A stretch of DNA of 64,000 bases from NCBI GenBank assembly GCA_017449065.1, contig JAFSKF010000018.1, positions 1 to 64,000 on the forward strand, in the 5' to 3' direction. Below the pieces are notes generated by a model. That model was not told the DNA's origin, searched no databases, and saw only the letters and a program-made list of their open reading frames with translations. A program made the translations under genes and the position numbers. Source of the stretch: Bacteroidales bacterium (GTDB lineage Bacteria; Bacteroidota; Bacteroidia; Bacteroidales; UBA3663). This document shows, one piece after another, positions 9,323-14,651 of the stretch; the stretch's first letter is position 1; each line of letters starts with the position of its first letter.

Positions 9323-9436
9323 AATGATGCACATTTTTAATTTTATATAGAATACGAACGCCCCGGGGCTTTTACTCAATCAGGTATTTGTTTATCTTTC
9401 ATAGGGGCATATAATCTCATTGATAAAAAAACTTTA

Positions 9437-9520
9437 TGCCTACGGAAAATTTGCTGGTTGCCTATGAAAAATTTGCACGATGCCTATAAAAAAATTGCGC
9501 GATGCCTATGCCGCAAAAAA
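9437..9520. repeat. Four direct 22-bp repeats between divergent genes
   Basis: Units start at 9437, 9459, 9481 and 9503. Each begins TGCCTA and continues into an A/T-rich stretch with TTGC near the end; the fourth is degenerate. The spacing is exactly 22 bp, about two helical turns. They sit between the divergent MFS gene (start 9322) and the secreted-protein gene (start 9663). The rest of this intergenic stretch (9323-9662) is A/T-rich and shows only a weak promoter-like TATCTTAG just before 9630. Confidence 0.75.
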
Positions 9521-9555
9521 GTTATCAGTTATAAGTTATCAGTTATAAGCTATAA
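9521..9555. repeat. Heptamer tandem array (GTTATCA/GTTATAA)
   Basis: Five consecutive 7-bp units are visible: gttatca, gttataa, gttatca, gttataa, gctataa. They directly follow the 22-bp repeats. Similar A/T-rich heptamer arrays flank the four-helix-bundle gene near 54.4-54.9 kb in this window. Confidence 0.8.
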
Positions 9556-9662
9556 GTTCGTAATTTGGCAATGAATAAAAAAAGGTATTCTTTTAGGTAT
9601 GTCCAAATTTTTGTTCGTATCTTAGTAGGGAATAATCCCAATTTTTTAATCAATTTTTACTT

Positions 9663-11765
9663 ATGAAACATTTACTAACTTTTTTCAACGTGTTCCACCG
9701 CCCATTGCGGTCGAACGCAGTTTCGTGTGGAAAACTCCGCACCACGAAAACACTTTTAGTCGCTTCCCTCGTTTGGATGATGGGGGTTGGTGCGATGTGG
9801 GGAGACGACGTCTCTCGTATTGACTATTGGGACTTTTCCTCTGGATGGTCAAGTACTAGATCTGGAGGAAGCACATCCTATAGTGATGGAGTACTTACTG
9901 TGAATTCGGGAACGGACAATACTAAGCGTGGTGATATTAAGAACGCTAGTAGTATAGAATTAGGTGCCAATAAAGTCATTTTCTATGAGATTGAATGTAC
10001 TGCCGATGATGTTTCCTTAAATGACAGTGATAAGAAATTCGGCTATACTGCTACTATAACTGCTTTTGATTCTAAAGCTGTAGTTAACGAGCAAGTGGTA
10101 AAAAAAGGTAGTCAAACCGTTAATTCCACCCATATGCTTGTCTACTTTGACTTAAGTACGACTAATGCTAACACAGCATACTTCACAGGTGATTCTGGCA
10201 ACAAATTCACTGACGATCAAAAAAATTCCTATAAGACAGCTTTGATTGCTGCAACGGATGTAACCATTTCCAGTCCCAATTTCACTTTGATAGGTTCTGC
10301 AGCAACTAATTTCAAGATTTATAAAATGGGGTCAGCTAAGAGTGTAAACGCTCTGCTTGCAGAATATGGAATCAGTCCAATCTATAATGTAACTAAAGAT
10401 CTTTGCTATGATAATAATGCACTGTACACAGCTGTCTCTGCAGCTGCCAGCGGTGATGAGATAGAATTGAATGGCGCTGTGGAGATTGGTAATCGAGTGG
10501 ACAATACAGGAACTGGTGAGAATGTCAAAACCATTAATATAACTGTGGGCAGTGGTAAGAATGTAACTATCACGCGCAAATCTGGCTATGAAGGATTGCT
10601 GTTCCTTAATAGAAACAGTTCGGATAACAAGATGTATATTGACGGAAGCGCAGGTTCCTTGACTATCGACAATAATGCTGCCGCCAATATTATGTTTGAA
10701 CTCCGAGAGTCTTCCACCTTGTCGCTTAAGAATGTGACTATACAGAATTCTACTGCACGTGTCATTGACGGACATTCAGGTCCTATTATGCTTGACAACG
10801 TGACTTTCAAAAGCTGCAAGCCAGCTACGGCCAGCAACGTTGAGAGCCAAAATGGTGATGTGAACTATCAAACAAAGGCTGTGGTCACTTTCCGTGGCAA
10901 TAATCTGACGATGCTGAACAACAACCAGTTCATTGATTGTGGTGATGAGCACATCTATCTGGACGATACAAATAGTGAAGCCGCTACGAAAATCAAGGCA
11001 AAGAACGACGATAATACAGTGTTTGCCACCCATACAAGACCTATTGTGTTGAGTCTTCCAGGAAATCGTACAGTCGGAACAAGCAAGTGGATTGTGTCTC
11101 GCGGCTATGGAAAGAGTTTCCCGTGTGTGTTCTACAACGAAGGCTATTATGCTACAACAAACGGCAATAACACAGACCTCTTTGCAGTTAAAGTAGATGG
11201 ACCAACTTACGATCTTACTATTAGTTCCGCAGGATTGTCAACTTTAGTGCTACCCTTCAATGTAGCAACTCTGCCTTCAGGCGTAACTGCCTATAAGCTC
11301 ACCACGACAAACAGTGTGGTATCTGCCAATGAGGTTTCAAGTATCACAAAAGATGAACCTGTATTGATAAAGGCTGAAGCAGGAACATATACCTTTACTG
11401 GCGATGCAGCAGCTTCGTATACTTCTGGAACCCACCAAAGTGGTGCGCTCATTGGCACATACACAGCTGTTTCAGCTGCTACTGGTGAGTATGTCCTTCA
11501 GAATGGAGCAGAAGGTGTAGGATTCTACAGATTGGCAGAGACCAGTAACTGCATCATCAGTCCCTTCCGTGCTTATCTCTCTAGCGCAGAAACTGCAAAT
11601 GCCCGCTCGCTGACCATCGTATTTGAAGACGAGACAACAAGTATCAATACTGTTCTGAATGAAGAGCAGAAGACAAATAGCTATTATGACCTCGGCGGAC
11701 GTCATGTAGATAATCCGACAAAGGGTCTCTATATCGTCAATGGCAAAAAAGTTTTTGTCAAATAA
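9663..11765 (+). CDS. Secreted beta-helix-like protein with unnamed N-terminal domain and C-terminal sorting-like tail
   Basis: This 700-residue protein has an unusually long signal region, with the hydrophobic core at about residues 30-46 after a basic stretch. Residues 54-230 form a domain that is clearly also present near the C-terminus of the 1138-residue protein encoded at 35916-39332. Residues about 250-480 look like a right-handed beta-helix, with repeated short strands such as GSLTIDNNA and LSLKNVTIQNS. A beta-rich region follows. The last ~28 residues, YYDLGGRHVDNP...GLYIVNGKKVFVK, match a short tail common in secreted proteins of this group and resemble a type IX secretion sorting signal. 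I do not recognise an enzymatic motif. It stands just upstream of a 53-residue peptide gene. Third-position A/T use is higher than in the flanking PUL genes. A surface adhesin or glycan-binding role is a guess. Confidence 0.75.
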   Translation: MKHLLTFFNVFHRPLRSNAVSCGKLRTTKTLLVASLVWMMGVGAMWGDDVSRIDYWDFSSGWSSTRSGGSTSYSDGVLTVNSGTDNTKRGDIKNASSIELGANKVIFYEIECTADDVSLNDSDKKFGYTATITAFDSKAVVNEQVVKKGSQTVNSTHMLVYFDLSTTNANTAYFTGDSGNKFTDDQKNSYKTALIAATDVTISSPNFTLIGSAATNFKIYKMGSAKSVNALLAEYGISPIYNVTKDLCYDNNALYTAVSAAASGDEIELNGAVEIGNRVDNTGTGENVKTINITVGSGKNVTITRKSGYEGLLFLNRNSSDNKMYIDGSAGSLTIDNNAAANIMFELRESSTLSLKNVTIQNSTARVIDGHSGPIMLDNVTFKSCKPATASNVESQNGDVNYQTKAVVTFRGNNLTMLNNNQFIDCGDEHIYLDDTNSEAATKIKAKNDDNTVFATHTRPIVLSLPGNRTVGTSKWIVSRGYGKSFPCVFYNEGYYATTNGNNTDLFAVKVDGPTYDLTISSAGLSTLVLPFNVATLPSGVTAYKLTTTNSVVSANEVSSITKDEPVLIKAEAGTYTFTGDAAASYTSGTHQSGALIGTYTAVSAATGEYVLQNGAEGVGFYRLAETSNCIISPFRAYLSSAETANARSLTIVFEDETTSINTVLNEEQKTNSYYDLGGRHVDNPTKGLYIVNGKKVFVK

Positions 11766-11811
11766 CTCAGAGATAATTTAAGAATTATTAGATGAATAAA
11801 AAAGTATCATT

Positions 11812-11973
11812 ATGGAAAAAAGAATATATGTAGCTCCCAAAACAAACGTCGTCGTTTTGCAAATGAGCAGTCAGATTATGGCATTAAGTGGTGAGTATGT
11901 TAAAAACGGTGACGCCAGTGGAGAACTTGAGAACCTCGGCAGTCGTTCCCGATTGTGGGGTGATGATGAATAA
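11812..11973 (+). CDS. Small peptide of unknown function (53 aa)
   Basis: The frame reads MEKRIYVAPKTNVVVLQ, continues with MSSQIMALSG, and ends SRSRLWGDDE before TAA. It lies 46 bp after the large secreted protein and is followed by a rho-independent terminator at 12010-12047, so it is the last gene of a two-gene unit. It is clearly related to the 56-residue peptide on the other strand at 12415-12585: both start M-x-K-x-Y-x-x-P with V-V three to four residues later, carry a small-residue S/A stretch near residue 20, and share a Ser-Arg-Ser-Arg then Trp/acidic end. There is no signal peptide. Short proteins with this 'KxYxxPxxxVV' opening are common in Prevotella and relatives but have no assigned function that I know of. 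Confidence 0.7.
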   Translation: MEKRIYVAPKTNVVVLQMSSQIMALSGEYVKNGDASGELENLGSRSRLWGDDE

Positions 11974-12009
11974 GCGCGTCTGAATCTTGAACAAAGTCAA
12001 TAAAAATGT

Positions 12010-12047
12010 ACTCCCGATTGCCTTTCGTTGGTAATCGGGAGTCTTTT
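12010..12047 (+). terminator. Rho-independent terminator after the 53-aa peptide
   Basis: The arms ACTCCCGATT (12010-12019) and AATCGGGAGT (12033-12042) pair perfectly over 10 bp, with further pairing into the loop, and are followed by CTTTTC. The position, 37 bp after the stop of the small peptide, fits the end of the plus-strand module. Confidence 0.85.
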
Positions 12048-12300
12048 CTGAATGACAAACGAAGTTTTAACTCTACTCCAAGAGCCCTTACTATCCACAA
12101 AATCTATTATATTTCTCTATCTTTTTTATTTTTCCGCAAAAACTACGGATATTGTTTTTTATTTGGAACTCTGCACCGTCAACAACAAGGAAATATTATG
12201 CCAAGACGGGCACATTGGAGAAAGACATTATTGAGCAGGGAAAGGTTAGCGACTTGAGGCTTTCCTAAACGAAGCCAATTCTGTCAACTGTGATGAAAGT
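12048..12300. other. Gene-free A/T-rich stretch with a possible degraded coding fragment
   Basis: I see no intact gene here. One plus-strand frame (12155-12268) reads through TGTLEKDIIEQGKVSDLRLS before a stop. That faintly resembles the start of leucine-rich BspA-type surface proteins, but there is no start codon context and no continuation. It may be a decayed fragment. Confidence 0.3.
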
Positions 12301-12390
12301 ATTTACAAAAAAGAGGATGTGCACATGTGAAGTGAACCCCGAAAGTTTTTTGTCTAACTTTCGGGGTTCACTTCACATGTGCACATCCTC
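12301..12390 (-). terminator. Very long perfect hairpin, probable terminator, insertion-sequence-like
   Basis: Arms 12313-12347 and 12356-12390 are perfectly complementary over 35 bp with an 8-nt loop. On the minus strand the hairpin is followed by six T residues (12312-12307), so it works as a terminator for the minus-strand module that ends with the 56-residue peptide, 24 bp away. The inner half (GTGAACCCCGAAAGTT, with GTCTAACTTT on the other side) looks like the terminal inverted repeat of IS3/IS150-group elements as I remember them, so it may derive from an insertion sequence. Confidence 0.7.
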
Positions 12391-12414
12391 CAAATAAATA
12401 ATTGGAAAAGAGTA

Positions 12415-12585
12415 TTACTGTTCGAAATCAATCCAATCAGAACCACGAGATCGTGATGCTCCGATGTCGCCTGCATCTGTATTATCAATTCCACTAATAC
12501 CTGCATTACCCAAAGAAGCGGCAATAACAGAGATTGTATCAATTTTTACCACTTGTACAGATGGTGTTTCATATACTTTCTTCAT
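12415..12585 (-). CDS. Small peptide of unknown function (56 aa)
   Basis: The frame starts MKKVYETPSVQVVKID, continues with ISVIAASLGNAGISG, and ends SRSRGSDWIDFEQ. It is 23 bp downstream of the 680-residue secreted protein on the same strand and is followed by the 35-bp hairpin terminator. It is the same family as the peptide at 11812-11973. It has no convincing signal peptide, although the middle is rich in small residues (Ala, Ser, Gly, Ile). The arrangement, large secreted protein then small peptide then terminator, is repeated in mirror image by the plus-strand module. Function unknown. Confidence 0.7.
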   Translation of the reverse strand: MKKVYETPSVQVVKIDTISVIAASLGNAGISGIDNTDAGDIGASRSRGSDWIDFEQ

Positions 12586-12608
12586 AGTGTATTATTTTTA
12601 GAATCAAA

Positions 12609-14651
12609 TTACTTTACAATCACTTTTCGTCCGTTGACAACATAAATGCCAGGATGGCTATATGACTCGACACGCTGACCTGCCAAGTTATAAATAACCT
12701 TTGGCATATTGGCTGTTTCTTCAACTTGTTTCAAGCTTGTAACCTCACCCACGCTTGTAAATGTATCAAGGTCCTCAGCGAAGTTGAAACGGTACTCACC
12801 TACCCCATTGGAACCAACGAAATAAGCCTTATTAGCAGGAATATCGGCAGAACCCGTATAGCGGGCAAAAGTCAATGCTCCGTTAGCTATAGACTGCGAC
12901 TTGCTGATGGTATAAATATCTCCGCTAATACCGCTTACTGAAGTTGCAGCGGTTGTGCCAATCAGGATATTCGTACCAACAGTTTCTGCAGAGCTGGCGG
13001 TCTGTAAGGTAAAGATTGTCTCTGTAGCCAGTTCTGGAGCAAACAAGACAACGCCGGTTTCTGCCGGAATATTGGCAGTATTGGCTGAAATATTGGTGAA
13101 ACGAACCACCGATCCGTCCTGACTTGAGGCAACGTACGCCTTTACGCCTTCAGGAATCAATGCATCATAATCAACACAGAAACTTGCCCAAGGGCAATCG
13201 GCACTAAGAGTTACCGTCGGAGCAGCAACCATCTTCCAGTCGTTATTTGCCTTGACAAGACGATATCCCTGGTTAGCTACTACAAACTTATCAATAGCTG
13301 TGTACTGAGTAGTATAGCCAGAGCCATAGGCCACAATCAGATTTTCGGCAGGATTAGCTGCTTCTATAACAATAGGAACCGTATTCGTCAATTCTCCATA
13401 GACCTTCACTTCCTGATACTTTGTACCACTCCATTCACCAGAACCTGCCAAATAAACATTGGAACAACAGTTATTAAACACATTGTTACCAGCCAGGAAG
13501 AGGTTTCGTTGATTGTCATAAAGGACACCATATTCGGTAGTAGAGATATTCTCAAATGTACAATCTTTCACATAAAGGCTTCCGCTACCGCCACTATACT
13601 GAACACGAGCCACGGCACCATTCTGTTTCGAACTGATATTCCGGAATTCAATACCCTCAAGATAAACAGTTCCTCCATGACTTACTTCAAAGATAGAAGG
13701 AGACGTTGAATAATCCCCACTATTTCCGTCTATAGTCAGCGATCCCGACTCATTGGACTTAACCGTAACAGTTTTGGCAGCTGCAGCAAGGAACATCATA
13801 TTGGCATTACTCTTGTGATTAAGCACCACGTCATAGCCTGCAGCATTGGTGATAGTAACGTCATAGTTGAAGTTCACACGATTTGAGACATTCACATCGC
13901 TAAAGATTAGCAAGGTATTGCCATCCTCAGCTAAAGCACCTACGGCATCGTTGAGATTATCATAAGTAACACCTGTGGCGGTATTAAGGACAACCGGGAA
14001 CGATGCTGTCATTGCTGGCTGATAGGAAGCTGTTGTGTATCCGCTACTGTAGAATTTGCGGTCTCCGCTTCCAGCACTCGCCATATCGGAGAGTTTGTTC
14101 GTGATGAGTAAGGTAAAGGTACCTGTTGATCCATCATAATCAGCAGCTTCCTTGATTGCAGCCAAAGCTGTACCACTAAAAGTGAAGTCGCATTGCGTAT
14201 TTTCGGTATCGATTTTCTCCTTTCGGGTTGTCACACCATTTATCAATGGAGAATTTGACGGGGTTCCTGTGGTATTCAGATCCAAGCCTACCGTTGTATT
14301 TACGGTAGCCGCCAAAGTAGCAACATCTGTACTTTTTGACCAATCGTTCGTAAAGGTCCACAATGCCAAGGCATCTGTTCCGCTTTTTCCCGTTAAGGTA
14401 AGTACCAGTTTTGTTGCTGCATTCAAATTCTCGACCGAATACTTCTGAAGTGTAAACATACCTGCTCTGTGGTTGCCTGCAAATTCCGTATTAGACTCAG
14501 AGGCTTCTTTGGGATAACCAGAATTCCAAGTGTAAACCGACTCCTTAAGACTTGTCCGGAAGAAGACATCCTGACTTGGAGAAACTGAAACATCTGCCAA
14601 CAGGCTCCCCATACTGAGCAGTCCTGCTAAGAAAAGTAGTGTTTTTTTCAT
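12609..14651 (-). CDS. Secreted beta-helix-like protein with N-terminal carbohydrate-binding-like domain and sorting-like tail
   Basis: The 680-residue protein has a clean signal peptide ending near LLADVS. Residues about 20-220 form a beta-rich domain resembling the CBM96/DNRLF type of carbohydrate-binding modules (repeated strand patterns with LVLTLTG, FTLLITNKL and a terminal strand). Residues about 225-420 are a beta-helix-like region parallel to that of the 700-residue protein, with SGSLTIDGNSG and YLEGIEFRNISS. A beta-rich region follows and then the tail YNLAGQRVESYSHPGIYVVNGRKVIVK, a short type IX-like sorting signal. No catalytic motif was recognised. It forms a two-gene unit with the 56-residue peptide. 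Similarity of the beta-helix to that of 9663-11765 suggests the two modules share an origin. Confidence 0.7.
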   Translation of the reverse strand: MKKTLLFLAGLLSMGSLLADVSVSPSQDVFFRTSLKESVYTWNSGYPKEASESNTEFAGNHRAGMFTLQKYSVENLNAATKLVLTLTGKSGTDALALWTFTNDWSKSTDVATLAATVNTTVGLDLNTTGTPSNSPLINGVTTRKEKIDTENTQCDFTFSGTALAAIKEAADYDGSTGTFTLLITNKLSDMASAGSGDRKFYSSGYTTASYQPAMTASFPVVLNTATGVTYDNLNDAVGALAEDGNTLLIFSDVNVSNRVNFNYDVTITNAAGYDVVLNHKSNANMMFLAAAAKTVTVKSNESGSLTIDGNSGDYSTSPSIFEVSHGGTVYLEGIEFRNISSKQNGAVARVQYSGGSGSLYVKDCTFENISTTEYGVLYDNQRNLFLAGNNVFNNCCSNVYLAGSGEWSGTKYQEVKVYGELTNTVPIVIEAANPAENLIVAYGSGYTTQYTAIDKFVVANQGYRLVKANNDWKMVAAPTVTLSADCPWASFCVDYDALIPEGVKAYVASSQDGSVVRFTNISANTANIPAETGVVLFAPELATETIFTLQTASSAETVGTNILIGTTAATSVSGISGDIYTISKSQSIANGALTFARYTGSADIPANKAYFVGSNGVGEYRFNFAEDLDTFTSVGEVTSLKQVEETANMPKVIYNLAGQRVESYSHPGIYVVNGRKVIVK

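Follow-up and report, generated by a model that had tools for sequence, protein, structure and literature searches.

Small YxxP peptides encoded beside exported surface proteins in Bacteroidales and a candidate LPP-like maturation cassette

Linear polyphosphorylated peptides (LPPs), a class of ribosomally synthesized and post-translationally modified peptides (RiPPs), were described in 2026 from the lpp cluster of Paenibacillus alginolyticus, which encodes the RiPP recognition element (RRE) LppB, the kinase LppK, the signal-peptidase-like LppS, the exporter LppD and the nucleoside triphosphate (NTP) transferase LppN (PMC13381572). LppB residues N33 and D70 contact the Pro and Tyr of the leader, and phosphorylation is confined to S3 of a core starting A-Q-S, 18 residues past the leader Tyr (PMC13381572). 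LPPs were reported to be restricted to Bacillota, with 1-3 precursors within the cluster, often near capsule loci; their role was left open, and the text of that paper mentions neither Bacteroidales nor the type IX secretion system (T9SS) (PMC13381572). The LPP-like design has so far been described only in Bacillota and has never been tied to surface proteins. Here, we analyzed the first 64,000 nt of contig JAFSKF010000018.1 from a Bacteroidales bacterium (assembly GCA_017449065.1; hereafter the window), in which two facing units each encode a large exported protein followed by a small peptide with a YxxP motif near its N-terminus. As judged from sequence, these peptides are probably LPP-like RiPP precursors matured by an LPP-like cassette encoded elsewhere in the same genome.

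Parts of this arrangement are also found in other systems. Paeninodin-like phosphorylated lasso peptides share the RRE, the HprK-like kinase, the NTP transferase and a [Y/W]xxP leader, but the leader residue here is Tyr and not Trp, and at the position of Gly in paeninodin RREs the RRE has Asn. T9SS cargo with a type A C-terminal domain (CTD) likewise consists of an exported protein with a short tail carrying type A-like last motifs, with SprA present, whereas the tail described here is not matched by CTD models and is preceded by a pre-tail domain of ~140 aa. In the CTD of HBP35, the last 22 residues are enough for secretion (PMC10202324). The RiPP clusters with Gly-Gly (GG) leaders and peptidase-containing ATP-binding cassette transporter (PCAT) exporters (PMC10352776) are from Bacteroidales too, but have another leader type and export peptidase; YxxP and T9SS are unmentioned in that survey (PMC10352776).

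The peptide family and its linkage to exported proteins

A first-pass annotation of the window, made from the letters alone, had described two mirror-image units of a large protein, a small peptide and a hairpin terminator, and the open reading frames (ORFs), translations and hairpins agree with this layout:

9663..11765, plus strand: cargo protein A, 700 aa, exported, with a T9SS-like tail (ORF and translation; homologue of cargo B)
11217..11624, plus strand: pre-tail domain of cargo A, aa 519-654 (profile match, E 6.6e-34)
11637..11762, plus strand: C-terminal tail of cargo A, T9SS CTD-like (tail profile, E 1.6e-19)
11812..11973, plus strand: peptide A, 53 aa, with a leader-like YxxP (Y6, P9), predicted phospho-acceptor Ser26 and an acidic WGDDE end
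12010..12042, plus strand: terminator hairpin of the plus unit, 13-bp stem (fold z -4.2)
12313..12390, minus strand: terminator of the minus unit, a perfect 35-bp inverted repeat with an 8-nt loop, then U6 on the minus strand (-72 kcal/mol, z -16)
12415..12585, minus strand: peptide B, 56 aa, with a leader-like YxxP (Y5, P8), predicted phospho-acceptor Ser24 and a WIDFEQ end
12609..14651, minus strand: cargo protein B, 680 aa, exported, with a T9SS-like tail (ORF and translation; homologue of cargo A)
12612..12740, minus strand: C-terminal tail of cargo B (tail profile, E 3.9e-18)
12804..13193, minus strand: pre-tail domain of cargo B, aa 487-616 (profile match, E 1.1e-23)

The N-terminal part of both peptides carries KxYxxP, and both end in an acidic segment that includes a Trp. 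In a profile search of the window's genome, which was examined as stretches around profile matches, they proved to be members of a 24-copy family, so that their resemblance, already pointed out in the first-pass annotation, is not due to chance. Within a recent paralogue trio, the differences at codon positions 1/2/3 amounted to 5/6/19, 14/8/23 and 10/9/23, and this third-position bias shows that the short frame is coding and conserved under purifying selection. The Tyr and Pro of YxxP were invariant in the first and in the wider peptide alignment, a Ser was present 17 to 21 residues past the Tyr in 84/84 peptides (most commonly at +19), and Ala or Cys stood two residues before this Ser in 57/64 peptides, taken from the window's genome and 41 loci elsewhere. 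The cores vary strongly from copy to copy. The SRSR...W/acidic end that the first-pass annotation had listed as a shared feature holds within the window's genome and is largely specific to it; elsewhere, only the acidic/aromatic end is kept.

Neither the peptides nor the tails had a curated family in Pfam or NCBIfam. One family member matched the paeninodin lasso family weakly (E 0.017), and for this reason the idea of a leader was taken up. A phylum-wide scan with the genome-specific peptide profile returned almost nothing outside this genome, for which the specificity of the profile is as likely a cause as absence.

The family is closely linked to tail-bearing genes. A tail profile search yielded ~80 genes with this tail type in the window's genome, and 21/24 peptides had a same-strand tail gene ending at most 250 nt upstream (binomial p about 1e-29, with ~80 tail genes and an assumed total of 2,700 genes); 20 of these directly follow the tail gene, and the other comes second in a tandem pair. 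In named rumen and gut Prevotellaceae and Bacteroidales, a peptide scan seeded on MKKTY[IQ][SN]P and GSYRNSLW, which samples one part of the family, gave 41/41 loci with a same-strand tail protein immediately upstream, the tail being disrupted in L092. A tandem pair of peptides behind a single cargo gene was seen at L043/L046 (G000:C28:42757-43133).

The neighbors thus bear out the expected pairing of the peptide with a tail-bearing protein. The first-pass annotation also gave the large proteins a beta-helix-like middle, and this part was not confirmed; the passengers are diverse, with immunoglobulin (Ig)-like, carbohydrate-binding, GH43 and other domains, hence any such fold would be incidental. 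For the two large proteins of the window, a Pfam search returned zero families above cut-off, and the single-sequence AlphaFold model of cargo B had a mean pLDDT of 34, too poor for judging a beta-helix fold. The order of a large secreted protein followed by a small gene is like that of toxin-immunity pairs, and the peptide could in principle protect against a toxic partner; this we regard as highly improbable, since such passengers are not toxin domains and one conserved N-terminus is found on small proteins across unrelated partners.

About three quarters of the tail genes come without a family peptide: of the 59 tail genes not so paired, none (0/59) had a small ORF of the YxxP family within 450 nt downstream, and the T9SS tail was accordingly rejected as the determinant of pairing. 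Some peptides neighbor tail-less genes. At L021/L280 (G000:C49:35354-37499), a peptide comes after a tail-less protein with dockerin-like repeats (DVNKDGDIDVGDITALVNLI), and in more distant genomes peptides lie directly upstream of tail-less genes for signal-peptide- or lipoprotein-like products (L135, L137, L138, L140 and L141 in G345; L079 and L080 in G002; L133 in G480). The latter suggest that pairing with exported proteins extends beyond T9SS; across the family the partner is thus some exported protein, which in the Prevotella-like group is T9SS cargo. SprA (TIGR04189) was found in the window's genome, in all tested genomes with the peptide behind a tail cargo, and in 25/27 peptide-positive genomes altogether. 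The SprA-less ones are G002 and G480, both with peptides beside lipoprotein-like genes, as in G345, which has SprA.

A candidate maturation and export cassette

The window's genome carries a single cassette, on contig C23, within about 6.4 kb:

C23 60664-61626: HprK-like kinase (TIGR04352 HprK_rel_A, 1.6e-9, below the curated cut-off)
C23 61658-62122: archaeal-type signal peptidase (TIGR02228, 6.7e-9, below the curated cut-off)
C23 62140-62409: discrete RRE, PqqD-like (PF05402, 2.7e-16)
C23 62417-64063: MsbA-like ABC exporter (7.8e-70)
C23 65797-67017, minus strand: NTP transferase NTP_transf_5 (PF14907, 1.4e-32)

These components resemble the LPP set one for one, and the peptides resemble LPP precursors in their YxxP leader, in the Ser of an A-x-S motif about 18-19 residues past the Tyr, and in a variable C-terminal core. 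The kinase has a P-loop, SGTGKST, and an NDDNP motif, and the signal peptidase motifs SM.PF ... HR ... GDGN, of the Ser/His/Asp type, are kept in 13 loci. The RRE profile matched the PDB chains of LppB (9x8z, E 3.7e-5) and of the lasso RREs TfuB1, PbaB1 and TbiB1, and the Asn and Asp equivalent to LppB N33 and D70 do not vary among the aligned Bacteroidales RREs; a peptide-profile search of the PDB missed the LppA leader chain.

The neighborhoods of the RRE genes recurrently contain an HprK-like kinase, a signal-peptidase-like protein of ~150 aa, an ABC exporter and, at some loci, a nucleotidyltransferase. Among the RRE loci examined, a homologue of HprK was near 19/20 and one of signal peptidase I (SpI) near 17/20, the NTP transferase being near only 4/20. 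Other high-scoring RRE loci had an SpI homologue within their 1.5-kb flanks in 4/26 cases, 2 of those 4 with an adjacent family peptide. A family peptide adjoins the RRE gene in G377, G422, G460 and G461, and PF05402 (a PqqD ORF) was detected in 21/21 peptide-positive genomes tested, usually as a single copy. Full lasso biosynthesis was considered and appears unlikely, as the lasso B2 peptidase (PF13471) was not found above cut-off in 21 genomes, in which the macrolactam cyclase was not searched for. A second RRE cassette, at L182 (G494:C37), comes with radical SAM genes and an adjacent Cys-rich YxxP peptide (MKTEKMTYEKPTIQKVEFDYKTGIAASGCGATYGAFEHCQICEMN), and probably belongs to a different RiPP.

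From these data we infer a scheme in which the one cassette on C23 would serve all of the ~24 scattered precursors in trans. The RRE would bind the KxYxxP leader, the HprK-like kinase would phosphorylate the nearly invariant Ser ~19 residues past the Tyr, and the archaeal-type signal peptidase would remove the leader near the A/C-x-S motif; the MsbA-like transporter would export the core peptide, and the NTP transferase may attach a further group. Each precursor gene would be a satellite of one exported surface protein, with peptide and partner co-expressed. Of the roles that the first-pass annotation had listed, namely maturation, anchoring, immunity, signalling or a modified secreted peptide, the last agrees best with the leader-bearing precursor and the LPP-like cassette.

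Several observations count against LPP-like maturation. The peptides depart from the LPP leader consensus YxxPxVLxHQxIxFETxxS: HQ and FET are absent, and Y, P and the Ser spacing are kept. The kinase and peptidase assignments depend on matches below curated cut-offs, and within 7 kb of the G491 RRE there is neither a kinase nor a peptidase nor a transporter. PqqD genes occur in 127/198 Bacteroidales genomes; the 10/10 peptide-positive genomes of that sample compare with a base rate of 64%, and because these genes are common in the order, their co-occurrence with the peptides is by itself modest evidence, supportive and not decisive. No peptide lies beside the cassette in the window's genome. 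LPP clusters hold 1-3 precursors, whereas here ~24 dispersed precursors in Bacteroidales are paired with exported surface proteins and adjoin the cassette only in some other genomes. As both the full leader consensus and the clustering of precursors are lacking, we describe the system as working like LPP and do not class it as LPP. A last point concerns the partner: within the genome, the similarity of peptide cores tracks the upstream passenger as well as it tracks the pre-tail domain.

The pre-tail domain and the possible action of the peptide

A domain of ~140 aa just ahead of the tail is common to 36/41 of the cargos elsewhere, and in the window's genome it was found in 15/22 peptide-linked versus 2/52 peptide-less loci (Fisher 1e-8). 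One of the unlinked hits, C14:101400-102789, has its peptide upstream instead. From these sequence comparisons, the peptide link is more specific than the tail and tracks the pre-tail domain. A single module, formed by L311 and L030 (G000:C14:100526-102789), is reversed, with the peptide ahead of its tail-bearing, pre-tail-domain protein.

The pre-tail domain and tail of cargo A were modeled by AlphaFold2 from a 35-sequence alignment as a confident all-beta unit (pLDDT 89). Comparison of the pre-tail domain fold with the PDB gave no clear match (best Foldseek E 0.44; best VIA Z 2.9), which does not by itself imply a new fold; being absent from Pfam hits, the domain is a candidate new family. 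The tail carries KGxYIVNGKK, resembling the last motifs of a type A CTD, and matched none of the CTD models in Pfam and NCBIfam.

The exported peptide would most likely act at the cell surface together with its partner, via the pre-tail/tail region, by binding, display or attachment. The narrower proposal that the mature LPP-like core binds or joins this region of its own co-encoded protein is put forward tentatively, as one possibility with well under even chances. The peptide core and the cargo C-terminus are co-inherited. Specific co-evolution of core and pre-tail domain is not claimed: the cross-genome Mantel r was 0.50, but the upstream passenger correlates as well within the genome.

The peptide might instead be an unmodified cytoplasmic or periplasmic helper, such as a chaperone, adaptor or escort, that binds the pre-tail domain before secretion. 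Its tight pairing with cargo bearing pre-tail domain and tail, its small size without a clear signal peptide, and its short conserved N-terminal and acidic C-terminal segments, like those of small adaptors, would suit such a function. We consider it improbable, as family members also stand beside RRE genes and tail-less lipoprotein-like genes, two peptide-positive genomes lack SprA, most tail genes manage without a peptide, and the invariant YxxP and Ser fit recognition by an RRE and a kinase. Alternatively, the peptide could be a RiPP secreted as a signal or antimicrobial, its production simply co-regulated with that of surface proteins and without a physical link to them. This reading would share all the evidence for maturation, and the strongly variable cores agree with it, as does the unknown role of LPPs in Bacillota (PMC13381572). 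Co-regulation alone would not lead one to expect the specific association with a single pre-tail domain, though shared descent of the 3′ end could yield it, and we take this explanation to be unlikely, if less so than a helper.

If LPP-like maturation holds true, a RiPP class that was confined to Bacillota when published in 2026 would extend to gut and rumen Bacteroidales, where dozens of unlinked precursors would depend on a single maturation cassette. LPP-type peptides would then gain their first functional context, each secreted surface protein having a peptide dedicated to it. Should the peptides also act on their partners, dozens of different surface proteins secreted by T9SS would be decorated or anchored by a single RiPP factory working in trans. 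The system also offers a handle on a large uncharacterized small-protein family and on the finishing of T9SS surface proteins in these bacteria.

Cargo A and cargo B of the window are distant homologues (26% identity across a 629-column alignment, E 4e-14), both with a hydrophobic N-terminus and with tails alike in kind (...YDLGGRHVDNPTKGLYIVNGKKVFVK and ...YNLAGQRVESYSHPGIYVVNGRKVIVK). The terminator at 12313-12390 is the longest perfect hairpin of the window by a wide margin. Upstream of the plus unit, at 9436-9558, a 22-bp unit (ATGCCTATGAAAAATTTGCACG) is present in 3.4 copies, followed by AAGTTATCAGTTAT repeats.

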